From contig NZ_CP159218.1 in the NCBI RefSeq assembly GCF_040438885.1, forward strand, positions 248,001 to 312,000: a stretch of 64,000 bases of DNA. Reading direction: 5' to 3'. Below, in pieces: positions 1,980-60,795 of the stretch (the first letter of the stretch is position 1; every line of letters begins with the position of its first letter). Source of the stretch: Nakamurella sp. A5-74. Lineage in GTDB: Bacteria; Actinomycetota; Actinomycetes; Mycobacteriales; Nakamurellaceae. The translations under genes were made by a program, and so were the position numbers. The notes beneath the pieces are model-generated. The model saw only the letters and a program-made list of their open reading frames with translations. It did not search any database and had not been told where the DNA came from.

Positions 1980-2100
1980 CTAGTGCACCCCTACGCTGCG
2001 CCTACGACGGACGTTCCGACGTATCGACCAGGATATCCCGGAGCGCCGACGACGGGGGTACGACCGACCGTGCTACCGCAGGTTACTTCGAGACACCCGT

Positions 2101-3519
2101 CTAGTACTACAGCCGTAGATCGATCTTGTAGTGCTCTGATCTGCGGCGATAGTGGTGGTATCGGGCGGTGGCTTGGTGTTTCCGTCGCCAGATTGACCAG
2201 TGCAGGACGTGCTCGCGGGTCGCGATCGCTCCGACTGTGAGGGTGTCGAAGAGTTTTCGCAGCTCGTTCAGGGTGAGATCGATCAGTCCGGTTGGTGCGG
2301 GTTGGCGGTCTTTCTCGGCAGCGGTGGTGACGGCAAGGAACGCCATCGCGAGCATCGCCAGGGTGCTCCAGCGGTGCCAGGAACACCACCGCCGGACCTG
2401 GTGTTCATCGAGTCCGGCTTGCCCTTTGGCGGTCTGGAACGATTCTTCGATCTTCCATCGTTGCCCTGCGACCCGGACCAGGGTGGCCAGCGGGACCGGT
2501 CGCGGTGAGTGACAGCGGTGGTAGGCCATCTCGTCGGTGGAATCGTTGCGGTGCAGCAGCAACCAGTGCAGGCCAGGCTGATCACCGGGTATCCGGATGA
2601 GCGCCCACGAGTAGAACCGCGGACCCTTGGTTCCCGCGCCGGCTGACATCTTCTGCCACGACTGCGCGGGCAGCGTCCCGGTCAACGCATCAGCGCGGAC
2701 AGCTCCGCCCTGGGTCGGTACCCGGTGATCACACGCGACGGCCAGCACGTAGCCCATGGCTGTGTCGGTGAGCGCTGCACGAAGTTTGGAGTCGTTGCCG
2801 TACACCTCGTCGCCGGCGACGAACCGCGCCGGGACGCCAGCCTTTACTGCCGACAGGATCATCTGCAGGGCCAGTGCCGGTTTGGTCGCGAACCCGACAC
2901 CATCCGGGACACCGGCGCTGGCCATCCGGACGGGGTCATCGGTCCAGGACCTGGGCAGATACAGCGCCCGATCGATCAACGCATGCCCGCGAGGGGCCGC
3001 GTAGGTCAGGTACACCGCGACCTGAGCGTTCTCGATCCGGCCTGCAGTTCCGGTGTACTGCCGCTGCGCGCCGACCGTGTGCACGCCCTTCTTCACATCG
3101 CCGGTTTCATCAACGATCAGGACACCGTCCGGGTCACCGAACTCCTCAACCACATAGTGGCGCAGATCATCGCGGACCGCGTCAGCATCCCACTTCGCAC
3201 GGGAAAGCAAGTGCTGCAACCCATCCGGGGAAACATCACCTCGATGCTCAGCGATCGTCCAACAGTTCTTCCGGTCCAGACCGGACAACAACCCGAGCAT
3301 CAACGCACCAGCATGCCGGGCCGACTCGTACCGCGCGAACCGCGGCCGGACGCGGTCCAACAGCGCGCCGAACCCGTCCCACCACCGGTCAGGCTCTATC
3401 CTGTGAGCCGCGGCCAGCGCGACGTTCTTGTTTGTCTTCACAACCAACCATGATCACGCGCTGGCCGCCCCGACCTGCGACAACACGCCCAAAACCTCGA
3501 TCTACGGCTGTAGTACTAG
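2101..3519 (-). mobile_element. IS701-family insertion sequence, copy 1
   Basis: The element is bounded by CTAGTACTACAGCCGTAG at 2101-2118 and its exact reverse complement at 3502-3519. The outer CTAG is present on both sides and fits a 4-base target duplication. It carries one transposase gene. It sits between the helicase and methyltransferase genes of the putative defence operon. A related but not identical copy lies at 20945-22363 with the same 18-base ends. Confidence 0.88.
2107..3447 (-). CDS. IS701-family transposase (copy 1)
   Basis: A 446-residue DDE transposase that appears intact. The acidic catalytic positions are visible as VDETGDVKKG (about residue 113), AGDEVYG (about 215) and WKIEES (about 338). 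The start is TTG, just inside the right terminal repeat. Comparison by eye with the other copy shows roughly four-fifths identity with the C-terminal third almost unchanged, so the two copies are separate isoforms rather than a recent duplication. Confidence 0.9.
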   Translation of the reverse strand: MVVKTNKNVALAAAHRIEPDRWWDGFGALLDRVRPRFARYESARHAGALMLGLLSGLDRKNCWTIAEHRGDVSPDGLQHLLSRAKWDADAVRDDLRHYVVEEFGDPDGVLIVDETGDVKKGVHTVGAQRQYTGTAGRIENAQVAVYLTYAAPRGHALIDRALYLPRSWTDDPVRMASAGVPDGVGFATKPALALQMILSAVKAGVPARFVAGDEVYGNDSKLRAALTDTAMGYVLAVACDHRVPTQGGAVRADALTGTLPAQSWQKMSAGAGTKGPRFYSWALIRIPGDQPGLHWLLLHRNDSTDEMAYHRCHSPRPVPLATLVRVAGQRWKIEESFQTAKGQAGLDEHQVRRWCSWHRWSTLAMLAMAFLAVTTAAEKDRQPAPTGLIDLTLNELRKLFDTLTVGAIATREHVLHWSIWRRKHQATARYHHYRRRSEHYKIDLRL

Positions 3520-3790
3520 GGGCCCCGGTGCTCGTCCACCCAGGACAGGTGTACTCGCTGGTAGCCAGGTCAAGCCGCCTCGGTGCCTGTGCTCCGTCAC
3601 CCTGCGGGCAAGGGGGCTGACGCCGCTAGTAGCCACACCGACCAAGAGCAGGCAGGCCAGCAGGCGAGACAGCGTTGCTCGATTAACCTCAATCCTGTTC
3701 GAAGTCTACGAGATGACCAACGGTGCCGCGTGAAGTGATGTTTCTCCATTCTGCACAACAGAGCCGAACCGGATTTCACCGGCACGTCGC
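3520..3790. other. Spacer between IS701 copy 1 and the helicase gene
   Basis: Together with 1980-2100 on the far side of the element, this is the original spacer between the helicase and methyltransferase genes. No convincing coding sequence, tRNA or terminator hairpin was found on either side. The combined original spacer of roughly 390 bases is long compared with the overlapping genes upstream in the operon, so the methyltransferase may have had its own promoter even before the insertion. Confidence 0.4.
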
Positions 3791-26385: not shown

Positions 26386-26911
26386 GGTGGGCCTTCCGGT
26401 CGGTTGGTCGCTCGGGACGCTACCGACTCGGCCACCTGCTGCGGACCGATTCCGTGCGACTCGACCTGATCGGGACAAAGTTGTCCACATCTGTGGTGCA
26501 TCTCGTTCCGGAGGCCTGCCGCCGCCTACCGTTGGGAGACAGCAGGTTTCAGCACCACGGCACCACGGAGGTCTCGATGTTCCACTGACCCGTCCCGTAC
26601 CGCAGCATGACCGCGTCGTAGCGTCGGTGGATGATCCGTCGGGATCTCGACGCGCTCCTTCGTCGCTTGCTCGATCAGCGTGGGGTCATCACGCCTCGAG
26701 TACCCCCGTCGGGATCTCGACGCGCGCGTTCCTCGCTTGCTCGATCAACGGGGGGTCGCTCGCTCGATCACTGTGGGGGTCGTCCCTATGGCTCGAGTAC
26801 CCCCGTCGTGAACTCGGTCGATGATCCGTCGGGATCTCGACGCGCTCGTTCCTCGCTTGCTCGATCACCGGAGGAGTCGCTCGTTCGACCAGCGGGGGGT
26901 TGGGTGCTCGA
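26386..26911. repeat. DnaA-box match and three palindromic intergenic repeats
   Basis: TTGTCCACA at 26481-26489 is a perfect DnaA-box match. From about 26630 to 26935 three copies of the window's common repeat core GGGATCTCGACGCGC begin at 26641, 26711 and 26831, each followed by TCGCTTGCTCGATCA after a few bases. A second shared block, GGGGGTCGTCC, occurs at about 26775 and 26928. The last copy supplies the stop codon of the oxidoreductase gene. No gene is seen in this stretch. Confidence 0.7.
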
Positions 26912-35577: not shown

Positions 35578-35640
35578 CGGTGATCGAGCGAGAGAGGAAC
35601 GAACGAGTCGAGATCCCGTCTTGTTCGACGGGTCGATCAG
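35578..35640. repeat. Intergenic palindromic repeat at the MFS gene end
   Basis: One copy of the common repeat family (GATCGAGCGAGAGAGG, then GAGTCGAGATCCCG). Its outer end supplies the TGA stop codon of the MFS gene. Confidence 0.55.
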
Positions 35641-37640: not shown

Positions 37641-37950
37641 CGGTTGTCGAGCGAGCGGAGTGGGGTTCAGGCCGGTCCGCGTCTGACGGGGTCTCGACTC
37701 CCTCCTTCGTCGGTCGCTCGACCACCGATTTCTATGCTGATCGAGCGAGCGGAGTGGGGTTCAGGCCGGTCCGCGTCTGACGGGGTCTCGACTCCCTCCT
37801 TCGTCGGTCGCTCGACCACCGATTTCTATGCTGATCGAGCGAGCGGAGTGAGTCGAGATCCCTTCGTGTTTCGACCGGCTGCGAGAGGGCGGGGTCTCGA
37901 CTGCCTCCTTCGTCGGTCGCTCGACCACCGATTCTTGCGCTGATCGCGGG
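37641..37950. repeat. 94-bp tandem repeat plus partial copies
   Basis: Two essentially identical 94-base units start at 37651 and 37745 with GCGAGCGGAGTGGGG, and a third start occurs at 37839. Each unit has two arms of the common repeat family in opposite orientation (TCGAGCGAGCGGAG and GGTCTCGACTCCC). The identity of the units points to recent duplication. No gene lies in this 367-base spacer. Confidence 0.75.
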
Positions 37951-39359: not shown

Positions 39360-39500
39360 TGGGGTCTCGAGTCCTGCGTCGCTCGACCATCGAACTTGCG
39401 GTGATCGAGCAAGCGACGAAGGAGCGCGTCGAGATCCCGTTATGACACGATCGGTTCTCATCAGTCGGGGTCTCGTTGCCTGCGACGCTCGACCACCGGG
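39360..39500. repeat. Intergenic repeat copies
   Basis: Two copies of the common repeat family in the 264-base spacer: GGGGTCTCGAGTCC with the inverted arm GAGCGCGTCGAGATCCCG at about 39421, and a second GGGGTCTCGTTGCC near 39464. Confidence 0.6.
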
Positions 39501-41802: not shown

Positions 41803-42932
41803 AGCTGCTCGGACTCGACCTGCTCACCCTGGCCATCCCCCTGGTCAGTCCCTTCGAGACGTCGTTCGGATCGCAGAGCTCCCGGCACGTGATCCTGATC
41901 CGCGCCGAGACCTCCGTCGGGATCGGCTGGGGCGAATGTGTCGCAATGTCGTCCCCGGTGTACTCCTCGGAGTTCAATGCCGCCGCCGAGCTGGTGATCG
42001 CCGACCACTTCGCGCACCCCTTGTTCGCCGCCGAGAACCTCTCCGGGGGGACCGTCGGGCATGTGCTGGAGCCGTTCAAGGGACACCGGATGGCCAAGGC
42101 GGCAGTCGAGCTCGCCGTCCTGGACGCCGAACTGCGGGCCGCGCAGATGTCGCTGGGCACGTATCTGGGCGCGACCAAGGATCGGGTGCCCGCGGGAGTC
42201 TCGGTCGGGATCATGCCGTCTATCCCGGAACTGCTCGCCGCCGTCGGCGGCTACCTCGAACAGGGCTACCTGCGGATCAAGCTGAAGATCAAGCCCGGCT
42301 GGGACATCGAACCGGTGCGCGCAGTCAGGGAGGCATTCGGCGACGAGGTGCTGCTGCAGGTCGATGCCAACACCGCGTACTCGCTGCGGGACGCCGGCCA
42401 TCTGGCCCGATTGGACGAGTTCGGCCTGCTGCTGATGGAGCAGCCGCTGCAGGACGAGGACCTGACGGAACACGCCAAGCTCGCGGCCAGGCTGACCACT
42501 CCGATCTGCCTGGACGAATCGATCGAGTCGGCCAAGGACGCCTCGGACGCCATCGCGCTCGGCGCCACCAGCGTGGTCAACATCAAGGCAGGGCGGGTCG
42601 GTGGCTACCTCGAAGCGCGCAGGGTGCACGACATCTGCCGCGCCGCCGGGGTCCCCGTCTGGTGCGGCGGGATGCTCGAGACCGGCCTCGGCAGGGCTGC
42701 GAACGTCGCCCTCGCCGCGTTGCCCGGATTCACCCTGCCCGGCGACACGTCGGCCTCGGCTCGCTTCTACCACCAGGACATCACCGCGCCGTTCGTGCTC
42801 GAGGACGGTCATCTGCGGGTGCCGACCGGACCTGGCCTGGGCGTCGAGGTGGACGAGGACGCGGTGGCCTCCTTCCTCGTCTCGCGACGCCGGATCGACC
42901 CCACGAACGCGCCAGGGCCCGTCATCGCATGA
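41799..42932 (+). CDS. N-succinylamino-acid racemase / o-succinylbenzoate synthase family
   Basis: 377 residues of the enolase superfamily (MLE subgroup). The catalytic set is complete: Lys161-x-Lys163 in RIKLKIK, metal ligands Asp189, Glu214 and Asp239, and Lys263 in NIKAGR. These positions match the numbering of the Amycolatopsis N-acylamino-acid racemase. Members can also act as MenC in menaquinone synthesis; with a coupled GNAT gene the racemase role is more likely. The TTG start overlaps the GNAT stop and follows AAGGAG by 8 bases. A desuccinylase (M20 peptidase) expected for the pathway is not next door. Confidence 0.84.
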   Translation: MKLLGLDLLTLAIPLVSPFETSFGSQSSRHVILIRAETSVGIGWGECVAMSSPVYSSEFNAAAELVIADHFAHPLFAAENLSGGTVGHVLEPFKGHRMAKAAVELAVLDAELRAAQMSLGTYLGATKDRVPAGVSVGIMPSIPELLAAVGGYLEQGYLRIKLKIKPGWDIEPVRAVREAFGDEVLLQVDANTAYSLRDAGHLARLDEFGLLLMEQPLQDEDLTEHAKLAARLTTPICLDESIESAKDASDAIALGATSVVNIKAGRVGGYLEARRVHDICRAAGVPVWCGGMLETGLGRAANVALAALPGFTLPGDTSASARFYHQDITAPFVLEDGHLRVPTGPGLGVEVDEDAVASFLVSRRRIDPTNAPGPVIA

Positions 42933-42957
42933 GCACCCCCGATGGCCCTCGCAGGAC

Positions 42958-43182
42958 GTGACGCCGGAGCGTCATGCCCTTTTCGGGGGACCCGCCGTCG
43001 ACCGGGTGGTCGATGCGCTCGGCAGCTCGGTGCTCTACCTGATGGCAGGCGGCACCGGGATCGACCGGGAGGTGCTGGACGTGCAGATCCTGGCGCCCGG
43101 TGAGGCCAACGACATCGACCCGCAGGTGCTCGCGCTGGCTGTCTGGCCGGTCGGTGACCAGGACGTCACCGGGATCGAGTGA
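42958..43182 (+). CDS. Small hypothetical protein
   Basis: A 74-residue frame from a GTG with strong GC bias at third codon positions, which supports coding. It contains VDRVVDALGSSVLYLMAGG and ends QVLALAVWPVGDQDVTGIE. No family is recognised. It follows the racemase gene by 25 bases and may be co-transcribed. It is too short for a confident call. Confidence 0.45.
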   Translation: MTPERHALFGGPAVDRVVDALGSSVLYLMAGGTGIDREVLDVQILAPGEANDIDPQVLALAVWPVGDQDVTGIE

Positions 43183-43199
43183 CGCAGCAGTCGATATCT

Positions 43200-43740
43200 G
43201 CACATGACCCCCGTCGCTCGACCACCGCACCCTTCGGTGATCGAGCAGCGAGGAAGAAGCGCGTCCGGATCCCGTTGGCGCACCGAAGGTCTCGACTCGT
43301 TGGTCGCTCGGCTACCGCACTCTTCGGTGATCGGGCAAGCGACGAAGGAGCGCGGCGAGATCCCGTTGCCGCACCGAAGGTCTCGACTCGTTGGTCGCTC
43401 GGCTACCGCACTCTTCGGTGATCGGGCAAGCGACGAAGGAGCGCGGCGAGATCCCGTTGCCGCACCGAAGGTCTCGACTCCTGCATCGCTACCACCGCAC
43501 ATTTCACCGATCGAACAAGCGACGAACGAGCGCGTCGAGATCCCGTTGGCGCACCGAAGGTCTCGACTCGCTGCGTCGCTCGACCACCGCACTCTTCAGT
43601 GATCGGGCAAGCGACGAAGGAGCGCGTCGAGATCCGGCTGGCGCACCGAAGGTCCCGACTCGTTGGTCGCTCGGCTACCGCACCTTTCTGTGATCGAGCA
43701 AGCGACGAAGGAGCGCGTCGAGATCCCGTCACGCCAGCAC
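43200..43740. repeat. Array of about six 91-bp palindromic repeats
   Basis: GCACCGAAGGTCTCGACTCG recurs, with small changes, at 43280, 43371, 43462, 43551 and 43643, a spacing of 89-92 bases. Each unit has an arm like GGTCTCGACTCGTTGG and an inverted arm like GAGCGCGTCGAGATCCCG, joined by CACTCTTCGGTGATCGG. The copies differ by substitutions, so the array is older than that at 37651. It is the longest non-coding block in the window. The AG-spacing and lack of unique spacers exclude CRISPR. Confidence 0.78.
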
Positions 43741-43858
43741 CGGGTGCGCATCGCAACCCCAGCAACCGCCAACGGGACCGATGACATCGTGACCGGATCG
43801 TGATCGCATCTGTTGTCCCACAGTGACTTTCCAAGCCTCGACTGTCGGACCCGTTGAG

Positions 43859-43864
43859 TAGCGT
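43859..43864 (+). promoter_or_regulatory. -10 hexamer of the DUF222/HNH gene
   Basis: TAGCGT lies 7 bases before the ATG at 43872, implying a leaderless transcript; no ribosome site is present. Confidence 0.5.
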
Positions 43865-43871
43865 TACCCTC

Positions 43872-45212
43872 ATGAACAGCACCAGCGGGACGAGCGTCGC
43901 GGACACCCGCGCACACATCGCCGCGCTGAATGTCGGGCTGAAGACGCTGCACACCAACCTGTTCCAGTGCCCCACCGGCGAGCTGGGTGACTTCCTGAGT
44001 GAGCTCGCCGAACTCCGCGCCTTGGCGGGCGCTGCCAGTGTGATCGTCACCGCGGACGCCGAGACCCGCGGTGTGGTGGAAGCGTCCCAGTCGGCGTCGA
44101 CCCGCGGCTGGGTCGCCGAACACGGCTGGCACTCCCGCCGCGAAGCAACCACCATCGCGAAAGCCGCGCACATCCTGCGCCGCCCGGAACTCGCAGAGAT
44201 CGCCGACTCCATCCGCACCGCCGACATCGACCTGGCGACCGCTGTGGTGGTGCAGGGCGAGTACGACAAACTGGCGCCCGAGCTGCTGCCCGGCGCGCAC
44301 CCCATCGTGCTGAAGCAACTGGTGAACCACGGCGCCGAACACGGACCCCGCGGCGTTCGGGAATTGCGCCAGTGGATCATCGCGCACCACAGCAAGCCCG
44401 ACGAGTTCGCTGACTTCCAGGACCGCTGCCGCCGCCACATCTCACTGTCATCGCCGACCGAAACGTCCACCGGGCTGCACGAATACCGCCTTGTCGTCGA
44501 CAACGAAGGCCTCAGCATCCTGGAAGCAGCCATCCAAACCCTCGCAGCACCCCGACCCGATGCGGCTACCGGCGAGCGGGACAACCGGCCCACCGACCGG
44601 CGCCGCGGCGAAGCCCTCATCGAAGCCCTCCGCCGATCCGTCCTCGCTCAAGGACAGGGCGCCACCGCAGCCGTGACTGCAACCGTGAACGTCACGATGC
44701 ACTTGGATGATCTGCAGCAACGAACCGGCGCCGCAACCTGCACCGGAACCATCGCCGACGGCACCCTGCTCGCACCCGACACCGCCCGCAAACTCGCCTG
44801 CGACGCCGGGATCATCCCGATGGTCCTCGGCGCCGACGGCGCCGTCCTGGACTGCGGTAAGGAACAGCGACTGTTCACCCTCGCTCAGAAACGGATGTTG
44901 TGGGCCCGCGACCGGCACTGCACATTCCCCGGCTGCGACATCCCCGCCCAGTGGTGCGACGCGCACCACCTCGTCCACTGGATCGACGGCGGCCCCACCG
45001 ACCTCGACAACGCCGCACTGCTCTGCCCGGCCCACCACACCATCGTCCACCGCGACGAACTGAACGGCGAAGTCACTGCGGGACAGGTGGTCTGGGATCG
45101 CAGACCCGGTTCCTACCGACCGACACGACGCCCAGCACCACCCGACCGAACGGTCTCGGCGGACCTGGGGTTACCCCGTCAACGCGCGGTATCGCCTCCG
45201 CTGCGAATCTGA
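43872..45212 (+). CDS. DUF222 / HNH endonuclease (13E12 repeat family)
   Basis: 446 residues. The N-terminal DUF222 region spans about 20-330 (HTNLFQCPTGELGDFLSELAEL, TRGWVAEHGWHSRREA). The C-terminal HNH domain is complete: CTFPGCDIPAQWCDAHHLVHW near 350, then NAALLCPAHHTIVHRDEL. This family is abundant and repeated in mycobacteria and relatives; its function is unknown and it is often treated as selfish. The start is fixed by the leaderless -10. It directly follows the 91-bp repeat array. Confidence 0.82.
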   Translation: MNSTSGTSVADTRAHIAALNVGLKTLHTNLFQCPTGELGDFLSELAELRALAGAASVIVTADAETRGVVEASQSASTRGWVAEHGWHSRREATTIAKAAHILRRPELAEIADSIRTADIDLATAVVVQGEYDKLAPELLPGAHPIVLKQLVNHGAEHGPRGVRELRQWIIAHHSKPDEFADFQDRCRRHISLSSPTETSTGLHEYRLVVDNEGLSILEAAIQTLAAPRPDAATGERDNRPTDRRRGEALIEALRRSVLAQGQGATAAVTATVNVTMHLDDLQQRTGAATCTGTIADGTLLAPDTARKLACDAGIIPMVLGADGAVLDCGKEQRLFTLAQKRMLWARDRHCTFPGCDIPAQWCDAHHLVHWIDGGPTDLDNAALLCPAHHTIVHRDELNGEVTAGQVVWDRRPGSYRPTRRPAPPDRTVSADLGLPRQRAVSPPLRI

Positions 45213-45275
45213 ACCGGCCAGCCCATCCGTGCTCCCAGCGCGCCCCGTTTCTCCGGGGTGTTCACGAGCCGGACC

Positions 45276-45281
45276 TACCCT
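45276..45281 (+). promoter_or_regulatory. -10 hexamer of the DUF429 gene
   Basis: TACCCT lies 6 bases before the ATG at 45288, implying a leaderless transcript. Confidence 0.5.
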
Positions 45282-45287
45282 GGCGGC

Positions 45288-45971
45288 ATGACGGTGCTCG
45301 GAGTCGACGGCTGGACCGGGGGCTGGGTCGGGGTCGAACTCGATGACCGGGGCGTTGTCGCCACCCACGTCGCCGCTGAGATCGACCAGCTGGTCGCCGG
45401 CTGCCCGGATGTCACCGTCGTGGGGATCGACATGCCGATCGGTCTCGCCGACCAGGGGGTGCGGGCGTGCGACCTGGCGGGCCGTCTCCTGCTCGGGTCC
45501 CGGCGAGCCACCCTGTTCCCGGTGCCGACCCGGGATGCGCTGGTGTGCGAGGACTACCAGCAAGCGCTGATCATCAGCCGGGAGCAGGGCAGCGGAGGGT
45601 TCTCGCGCCAGGCCTGGAGCCTGCGCGGCAAGATCCTGCAGATCGATCGGTGGTACCCGGCCGCGACGCGCGCCGGTCTGGCGGTCCACGAGGTGCACCC
45701 CGAGCTGTCGTTCGCGGCGATCGCCGGGTCCGTGCTCCCCGAGTCGAAGAAGACCTGGGCGGGGCTGCGGCGCCGGCTGGCGCTGCTCGCGGAGCAAAGC
45801 ATCGTGGTTCCCGATGCGCCCGGACCCGCGGCCACCGTGCCGTCCGATGATGTGCTCGACGCAGCGGTGGTTGCCTGGACGGCGCGCCGCATCGCTGCCG
45901 GTACCGCGGAGAGCATTCCCGATGTACCGCAGCGGTTCTCGGACGGAATCGGGTGCGCGATCCGCCGCTGA
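45288..45971 (+). CDS. DUF429 domain protein
   Basis: 227 residues with the DUF429 layout, an RNase H-like fold: the N-terminal VLGVDGWTGGWVGVEL (acidic first strand), VVGIDMPIGLAD near residue 47, and EVHPELSFAAIAG near 140. The acidic residues Asp7, Asp49 and Glu near 137 suggest a metal site and a nuclease-like activity, not proven. The start is fixed by the -10 hexamer. Confidence 0.72.
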   Translation: MTVLGVDGWTGGWVGVELDDRGVVATHVAAEIDQLVAGCPDVTVVGIDMPIGLADQGVRACDLAGRLLLGSRRATLFPVPTRDALVCEDYQQALIISREQGSGGFSRQAWSLRGKILQIDRWYPAATRAGLAVHEVHPELSFAAIAGSVLPESKKTWAGLRRRLALLAEQSIVVPDAPGPAATVPSDDVLDAAVVAWTARRIAAGTAESIPDVPQRFSDGIGCAIRR

Positions 45972-45979
45972 GTGCCCGG

Positions 45980-46182
45980 CGGTGGCCCGGCAACGCTGGA
46001 ATCCAGACCCGATTGGTGGTGGGACCGGTTGTATCGCAACGGGATCTCGACTCACTCTGTTCGCTCGATCACCGGAGTTCCGGTGGCCTGGTGACGCTGG
46101 AGTCCAGACCCGATTGGTGGTGGGACCGGTGGTATCGCAACGGGATCTCGTCGTGCCCCTTCGTCGTTTGCTCGATCACCGT
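45980..46182. repeat. Two tandem 101-bp repeats
   Basis: CGGTGGCC begins units at 45980 and 46081; each has CCAGACCCGATTGGTGGTGG then the common GGGATCTCG core and end CTCGATCACCG. The copies differ at a few positions. They fill the convergent spacer between the DUF429 and zinc alcohol dehydrogenase genes. Confidence 0.72.
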
Positions 46183-53354: not shown

Positions 53355-53450
53355 CGGGATCTCGTCGCGCTCGTTCCTCGGTTGCACGATCACCGGGACC
53401 GGTGGTGACCTGACGAGATCTCGACGCACTCCGTTCGCTCGATCGCCGTG
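53355..53450. repeat. Intergenic repeat copies
   Basis: Two degenerate copies of the common repeat family (GGGATCTCGTCGCGC at about 53354 and GAGATCTCGACGCAC at about 53416) in the 120-base spacer before the lipoate ligase gene. Confidence 0.55.
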
Positions 53451-60696: not shown

Positions 60697-60795
60697 GGGA
60701 TCTCGGCCGGCTCCCTCGTCGCTCGCTCGATCAGTGGGTGGGACCGCGACGGGATCTCGGCCGGCTCCCTCGTCGCTCGCTCGATCAGCGGGTGT
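60697..60795. repeat. Two tandem 54-bp repeats
   Basis: GGGATCTCGGCCGGCTCCC starts units at 60697 and 60751, each ending CTCGCTCGATCAG. The copies are nearly identical and belong to the common repeat family. Confidence 0.72.

Follow-up and report, generated by a model that had tools for sequence, protein, structure and literature searches.

In REPIN-RAYT systems, doublets of REP sequences are accompanied by a Y1 HUH transposase, a nuclease whose gene is flanked by like REPs, and to our knowledge the RAYT is the only dedicated mobiliser of REPs. Homing endonucleases include members of the GIY-YIG and HNH families. ISPpu9, ISPsy8 and other insertion sequences target REPs (excerpts of PMC1525189), and DUF222/HNH genes, such as REP13E12 of Mycobacterium tuberculosis, are counted among repetitive elements (excerpts of PMC10589994).

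The genome analyzed here (G000, 4.75 Mb) carries a REP family of which one tandem array directly precedes a DUF222/HNH gene. A search for Y1_Tnp/RAYT gave 0 matches in this genome, while the same search was positive in 5 of 14 control genomes; a RAYT partner for this REP family was ruled out on the absence of a Y1_Tnp match. The presence of REPs without a RAYT match raises the question of how REPs spread in this genome. We consider it probable that the REP system is served by a GIY-YIG nuclease instead of a RAYT, that the array is a tandem, REPIN-like expansion, and that DUF222/HNH is a second nuclease settling at REPs.

The 91-nt array and its REP family

The window, i.e., the whole stretch of 64,000 nt that was analyzed (G000:C1:248001-312000), contains the array and its half-elements listed here. 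Positions without a contig label are those of the window.

43213-43729, + strand: array of 5.7 tandem 91-nt units, each made of REP-like hairpin halves (TRF, anchor word, profile)
43235-43272, + strand: direct REP half-element 1 (profile)
43325-43363, 43416-43454, 43505-43543 and 43597-43635, + strand: further direct half-elements (profile)
43688-43726, + strand: last REP half-element, ending 145 bases before the ATG (profile, alignment)
43559-43589, - strand: inverted half-element, as an example (anchor word, profile)
about 43288-43317, 43379-43408, 43470-43498 and 43651-43680, - strand: other inverted half-elements (placed by anchor word)

The array (TRF: period 91, 5.7 copies, 86% match, score 745 at 43213-43729) has the top score among TRF's 20 rows for the window. 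The initial annotation had described about six 91-base units, each an imperfect inverted pair, with spacings of 91, 91, 89, and 92 between anchor words. These spacings proved exact in a search for the anchor word AAGGTCTCGACTC (≤2 mismatches), which occurs at 43286, 43377, 43468, 43557, and 43649, and the 5.7 copies found by TRF agree with the number of units. The inverted pair was likewise confirmed and resolves into one inverted half-element (GGTCTCGACTC..GCTCGACCACC) and one direct half-element (CGGTGATCGAGC..GTCGAGATCC) of a short imperfect hairpin, the conserved ends of which are CGGTGRTCGAGC...GTCGAGAYCC. REPIN-like doublets, each made of two inverted copies of this hairpin, follow one another in tandem to form the array, whose copies may have arisen here by unequal repair. 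Complete 91-nt units fold no better than shuffled sequences (z-scores: 0.25, -0.99, 1.15, -0.62), and the structure resides in the half-elements, where pairs covary. Rfam gave 0 matches at the gathering score over 42000-45500; this absence, together with the folding of the units, ruled out an RNA element. A CRISPR-like array was set aside since there are no unique spacers and the unit consists of an inverted pair.

The core pattern of the element has 117 exact matches in this genome (reversed control: 0) and 0 exact matches in the 16 other genomes of the genus, and BLAST of the unit against this genome gave at least 74 matches (40 of 196 candidates scored). Within the genome, hairpin columns covary: 6 of 40 sequences have G-C in place of A-T at one pair. 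Across 20 genomes, namely those that fitted a fixed pattern among an input of 27 of the 30 GIY-YIG loci considered below, three hairpin pairs are complementary in 35/35, 34/35, and 35/35 sequences with two or three pair types, and 0 of 2000 shuffles paired equally well. None of 27 sampled REP clusters is overlapped by a called gene, and inverted REP doublets occur both as the array unit and as neighboring inverted pairs. The dispersed repeat is therefore a REP family, given its many intergenic copies and its covarying imperfect palindrome. A profile of the short element located further clusters in sampled stretches of the genome and throughout the window:

26642-26870, - strand: cluster of 3 half-elements from the same REP family (profile)
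35578-35616, + strand: single REP half-element between convergent genes (profile)
37689-37930, - strand: REP cluster, 4 half-elements, one of them on the + strand, partly inside a perfect 94-nt tandem repeat (profile)
39399-39437, + strand: single REP half-element (profile)
46042-46181, - strand: REP cluster between convergent genes (profile)
53357-53448, - strand: REP cluster (profile)
60698-60790, - strand: REP cluster (profile)

The perfect 94-nt tandem repeat (37647-37850; TRF: 2.2 copies, 100%) suggests a recent tandem duplication of REP units. The profile spans 39 nt and misses short-form REPs. With a looser REP pattern, one or more matches were obtained in 92 of the 394 genomes of the class, large numbers being confined to a few of them. 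At five loci of one of these comparison genomes, G396 (L118, L119, L258, L260, and L267), truncated REP heads (repeated CGGTGGTCGAGCC) form ladders beside full REPs, as if the head alone had been repeatedly copied.

DUF222/HNH genes beside REPs

The gene that had been placed directly after the array is indeed a DUF222/HNH gene, preceded by a leader with a promoter-like box.

43727-43871, + strand: leader, partly common to paralogous units, with a direct repeat (ATCGTGACCGGATCGTGA, TGTCCCACA) and a promoter-like box (alignment)
43842-43864, + strand: CTGTCGGAC-N8-TAGCGT, 7 nt before the ATG (sequence, alignment)
43872-45212, + strand: DUF222/HNH gene, 446 aa (DUF222 E=1e-21, HNH E=8e-5)

The Cys/His positions of the HNH domain are invariant in 44/44 aligned proteins. 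NCBIfam returned no match for the window's DUF222 protein, and its predicted structure (pLDDT 78.9) matched nothing in the PDB at E≤0.001; the HNH part of McrA was the best of the confident matches. In a profile search, the matches to IscB, Cas8f-HNH, and McrA were limited to the HNH part, and the named relatives returned by a related-locus search were all distant. The box at 43842-43864 resembles what we take to be a damage-inducible RecA-NDp/PafBC promoter, and DUF222/HNH leaders of several genomes contain ACTGTCGG(TG) and, shortly upstream of the ATG, a TA-type box, presumably a promoter of the same damage-inducible kind (PafBC/RecA-NDp). In the G396 clade at REPs, most leader copies contain TTCGAACA..TGTTCGA, which we assume to be akin to a LexA/SOS box. 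Judging from leader sequences, DUF222/HNH genes are likely to be induced by DNA damage. The word TTGTCCACA or TGTCCACAG, or its complement, recurs before the ATG in DUF222 leaders of G396, G162, G142, and G079; it looks to us like an actinobacterial DnaA box, and the homology among copies of one G396 clade starts right at this word.

The genome contains 13 DUF222 genes. Six paralogues, including the gene of the window, are 81-90% identical, and all six (6/6) are preceded by the element in their own orientation, at 144-146 nt from the ATG in five and at 344 nt in one. A same-orientation REP within 400 nt upstream was found at 6/13 DUF222 genes versus 5/582 other genes in the sampled stretches (Fisher p=1.3e-8). 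A seventh gene, which belongs to another clade (L019, starting at G000:C1:1647976 on the - strand), is preceded by a run of short-form REPs in the orientation of the gene, which the 39-nt profile scored weakly, and the other 6/13 genes have no REP within 400 nt. The association of array and DUF222 gene that the initial annotation had noticed at a single locus thus recurs elsewhere in the genome, at 6/6 paralogues of the clade and at L019. Four congeneric loci with closer relatives of this DUF222 clade (48-55% identical; two in G008 and one each in G013 and G015) contain no REP of this family. When the six copies were aligned, five shared sequence from approximately the left end of the last REP, and in the remaining copy (L015) shared sequence started only 86 nt before the ATG. 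All six remain alike as far as the stop codon, which is preceded by a variable stretch, and the local alignments of most paralogue pairs end 66-94 nt before the stop.

Two explanations for the upstream position can be weighed at this point. If the array shielded the DUF222/HNH gene from transcription entering from the upstream operon, or controlled its expression, the spacing of 144-146 nt kept in five of six copies would be accounted for. The promoter-like box lies 7 nt before the ATG, however, which would leave the array outside the transcript, and other amplified DUF222 clades have no REP; we give this explanation very little credence. REPs could instead be ordinary transcription terminators or structural sites that nuclease genes adjoin because both tolerate the same gaps. 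This is consistent with gene context: of the 27 sampled clusters, 11 are flanked by convergent genes and not one by divergent genes (the stretches were partly picked because they hold REPs or DUF222 genes), and REPs elsewhere tend to follow genes, 38 of 582 other (non-DUF222) genes having one within 400 nt on the downstream side. It fits poorly with the same-orientation upstream REPs, found at 6/13 DUF222 genes and 5/582 others.

We extended the comparison to 11 genomes chosen as REP-rich; in all genomes, gene starts were those of a simple caller or were set at the nearest ATG. Together with this genome, a REP lies no more than 400 nt from one or other end in 45 of 133 DUF222 genes and is absent there in 88 (genes at REPs/loci examined/matches: G142 19/20/28, G396 7/20/23, G000 7/13/13, G079 6/15/15, G182 2/5/14, G381 2/9/14, G172 1/2/5, G228 1/6/11, G162 0/14/15, G244 0/10/10, G255 0/11/18, G374 0/8/9). 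In a tree of 119 of the 133 proteins (14 were dropped because of length or an internal stop), the REP label clusters, with 9 changes compared to 35.3 when shuffled. One clade from three genomes lies at REPs in 13/13 cases, the other G396 clades in 0/13 (a second point against terminators), and REP-adjacent clades also occur in genomes of another genus. Because G162, G244, G255, and G374 are all REP-rich and show contact at 0/43 genes, contact with REPs is a property of certain DUF222 clades, and the association holds for these clades, not for the family as a whole.

The type of REP differs by genome and not by DUF222 clade. Two DUF222 clades of G142 have one main REP type in common, and the main type found at one clade differs between G142 and G396, the single G079 member of that clade being mixed like the rest of G079. 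Therefore, the REPs belong to the genome, and because REP type follows genome we read the DUF222 genes as probable guests at resident REPs. Arrival of the gene at resident REPs is a simple fit to this pattern, which could also be explained by homogenization of REPs within each genome. Among the roles considered for the array (target, scar, or expression barrier), that of target, in the sense of a landing site, fits best since REP type follows genome, so that the interpretation in the initial annotation is partly supported.

In G396, G162, G142, G079, and G381, the homology among copies of amplified DUF222 clades, with or without REPs, stops abruptly on the right, either at the stop codon or at REPs following it. 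The exception is G182, where homology extends 286-499 nt past the stop; in G244, G374, and most of G255, pair homology ends before the stop. Shared bodies and sharp unit edges thus indicate that DUF222 genes behave as units multiplying within genomes. These edges bear on whether REPs are instead the terminal repeats of a transposable DUF222/HNH unit, with the array as its expanded left end and solo pairs as internally deleted relics. In the G396 clade, 7/7 fetched units have an inverted REP 4-5 nt past the stop codon and 5/7 have a direct REP upstream (pattern search), and a further G396 copy matches L121, a G396 unit, from REP to REP (2013-3614, 91%). In this genome, the homology of 5/6 units starts near the left end of the last REP. 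The site of L121 was readable as an empty site at 17 of 19 loci in congeners that are ~20% diverged, and 0/17 of these empty sites hold a REP, a result that, as far as such divergent sites can tell, goes against a REP resident there before the gene arrived; at this divergence no target-site duplication was readable. In the same intergenic gap of six congeneric loci (L180, L182, L186, and L193-L195) we observed other inverted repeats. Terminal repeats carried by the unit are difficult to reconcile with a REP type that follows genome and not clade, unless REPs are homogenized within genomes. Moreover, sharp ends are also seen in amplified DUF222 clades that lack REPs altogether, flanking REPs are inconsistently oriented among the DUF222 genes of G142, and four genomes have both REPs and DUF222 genes without contact. 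We regard terminal repeats as unlikely, and favor DUF222/HNH units that settle at resident REPs.

Stand-alone GIY-YIG genes beside REPs

Among the solo REPs of G396, a small GIY-YIG nuclease gene was found between an inward-facing REP pair. In five genomes, 9/10 stand-alone GIY-YIG genes (~100 aa) had REPs on both sides; in two of these nine, the downstream REP lies inside a frame that continues past the GIY-YIG domain. The GIY-YIG frames of L270, L271, and L275 run into the downstream REP, which supplies C-terminal codons. For GIY-YIG domains in UvrC or in longer fused proteins, 0/10 genes had a REP within 300 nt; two of these genes have one at 841 and 885 nt, respectively. This genome has a single stand-alone gene:

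G000:C1:2149620-2149913, outside the window: sole stand-alone GIY-YIG gene of this genome, with a REP array to its left and REPs to its right

The REP array directly upstream of this gene (G000:C1:2149029-2149497) has a period of 189 nt and parallels the 91-nt array before the DUF222 gene.

Across the class, 39 of 394 genomes contain a stand-alone GIY-YIG gene (E≤1e-8). When the best locus was taken from 30 of these 39, a REP lay within 300 bp in 29/30, on both sides in 26, and as an inward-facing pair in 24; one locus (L305) has no REP near, and the same holds for L281 under a stricter pattern. REP density at the GIY-YIG loci is 1.81 per kb compared to 0.06 at control loci, against baselines of 0.10 in random stretches of this genome and 0.15 at the syntenic loci L177-L195; Markov resamples gave 0.016. 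The gene also co-occurs with REPs: it is present in 17/20 genomes with at least three exact REPs and in 22/374 others (p=1.9e-16), a cut-off that was chosen after the REP counts had been seen. Counting against a GIY-YIG partner, three REP-rich genomes of the 20 (G228, G374, and G383) have no GIY-YIG match at E≤1e-8. The GIY-YIG profile (A3) was derived from REP-rich genomes and may favor REP-flanked lineages; without its five source genomes, the count is 12/15. Among 17 congeneric genomes, 1 contains the gene (E≤1e-6), namely the genome analyzed here, which is also the only one with REPs. GIY-YIG is the most consistent partner of the REPs, since a REP lies beside its gene in 29/30 genomes.

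The terminator reading is at odds with two of these results as well, the 0/10 GIY-YIG control genes within 300 nt of a REP and the co-occurrence of REPs with the stand-alone gene, and overall we find it very unlikely. It could alternatively be the DUF222/HNH protein, and not GIY-YIG, that mobilizes REPs here in the manner of a RAYT, with the array as its amplified substrate. The invariant HNH positions are compatible with this, as are the 6/6 clade members and L019 at REPs and the 19/20 DUF222 genes of G142. In G162, G244, and G255, however, 0/35 DUF222 genes lie at REPs while the GIY-YIG genes of these genomes touch REPs, and two DUF222 clades of G142 share a main REP type whereas GIY-YIG paralogues differ. 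An HNH mobilizer is thus distinctly unlikely in our view, and we retain GIY-YIG as the candidate.

The difference among paralogues is seen within single genomes. In G079, G142, and G162, the GIY-YIG paralogues each lie in their own REP type: between the REPs before and after a given gene, 0.76 of 20 arm positions differ, and between those of different paralogues 4.30. With host genome held constant, the true pairing of REPs by gene was the best of 24. This comparison used 7 of the 8 loci of these genomes (L281 was left out), dropped REPs with an unfit 3' arm or outside -400 to +700, and was confined to these three of the multi-copy genomes (G172, for example, has 5 copies). Like REPs on the two sides of one gene could also result from a local duplication or from gene conversion and need not reflect enzyme specificity.

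NCBIfam returned no match for two of the GIY-YIG proteins. The stand-alone UPF0213 proteins 1zg2 (BH0048) and 1ywl (EF2693) are relatives by sequence (E=3e-21 and 6e-17, respectively). Further relatives are plasmid-borne and non-actinobacterial, and 4 of 7 such records were compared: 3/4 lie beside palindromes (Methylobacterium bullatum, M. aquaticum, and Sphingomonas parapaucimobilis), and the relative in S. paeninsulae does not. The palindrome occurs at 40 or more places in each of the M. bullatum and S. parapaucimobilis records.

Proposed mechanism and related systems

The stand-alone GIY-YIG protein (G000:C1:2149620-2149913) would be the enzyme on which the REP family most likely depends. 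Taking the role of the RAYT tyrosine transposase, it would recognize the hairpin and nick or cut there, and repair or transposition would then copy the element into intergenic DNA. In this way GIY-YIG may cut or move REPs. Some clades of DUF222/HNH genes, multiplying within genomes, would settle at resident REPs, which they may use as landing sites. We see a somewhat better than even chance that this extends beyond the present genome, such that UPF0213-type GIY-YIG proteins are cognate, RAYT-independent mobilizers of whole REP families in Actinomycetota and Alphaproteobacteria, with DUF222/HNH genes using the repeats as landing pads. If true, this would hint at what UPF0213-type GIY-YIG proteins do, and it would account for the presence of a multi-copy HNH gene family beside repeat arrays. 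REPs are common bacterial repeats, and a small single-domain nuclease with a gene-by-gene repeat match makes the proposal directly testable with one protein and one hairpin.

Among the open-licence papers listed, none links GIY-YIG to extragenic palindromic (REP) repeats, the GIY-YIG titles being on introns, mitochondrial genomes, genome editing, restriction-modification, and DNA repair in crops, and, in the portions covered, no paper on HNH endonucleases and REPINs is relevant; in the text of PMC3733652, neither GIY nor HNH was found. The solved UPF0213 entries 1zg2 and 1ywl are named hypothetical, and no repeat partner for them was found in the same literature.

Homing endonucleases resemble the present system in belonging to the same catalytic families and in having the gene at what may be its recognition site; unlike theirs, the host site here is a dispersed repeat and not an intron or one allele. 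Compared to REP13E12 of M. tuberculosis, the contact with a hairpin array is a difference, such contact being unmentioned in the excerpts of PMC10589994. As with the insertion sequences that target REPs, mobile genes would settle in REPs; those are IS transposases in the species covered by the excerpts of PMC1525189, and not HNH or GIY-YIG nucleases.

The present system differs from REPIN-RAYT in that the flanked gene encodes a GIY-YIG nuclease, in that the genome has no Y1_Tnp match, and in the conserved REP ends (GGTNRTYGAG..TCGARAYC). What the two have in common are short imperfect hairpins in inverted doublets, many intergenic copies, a REP type that differs between genomes, and, with GIY-YIG in place of the RAYT, a nuclease gene flanked by like REPs.
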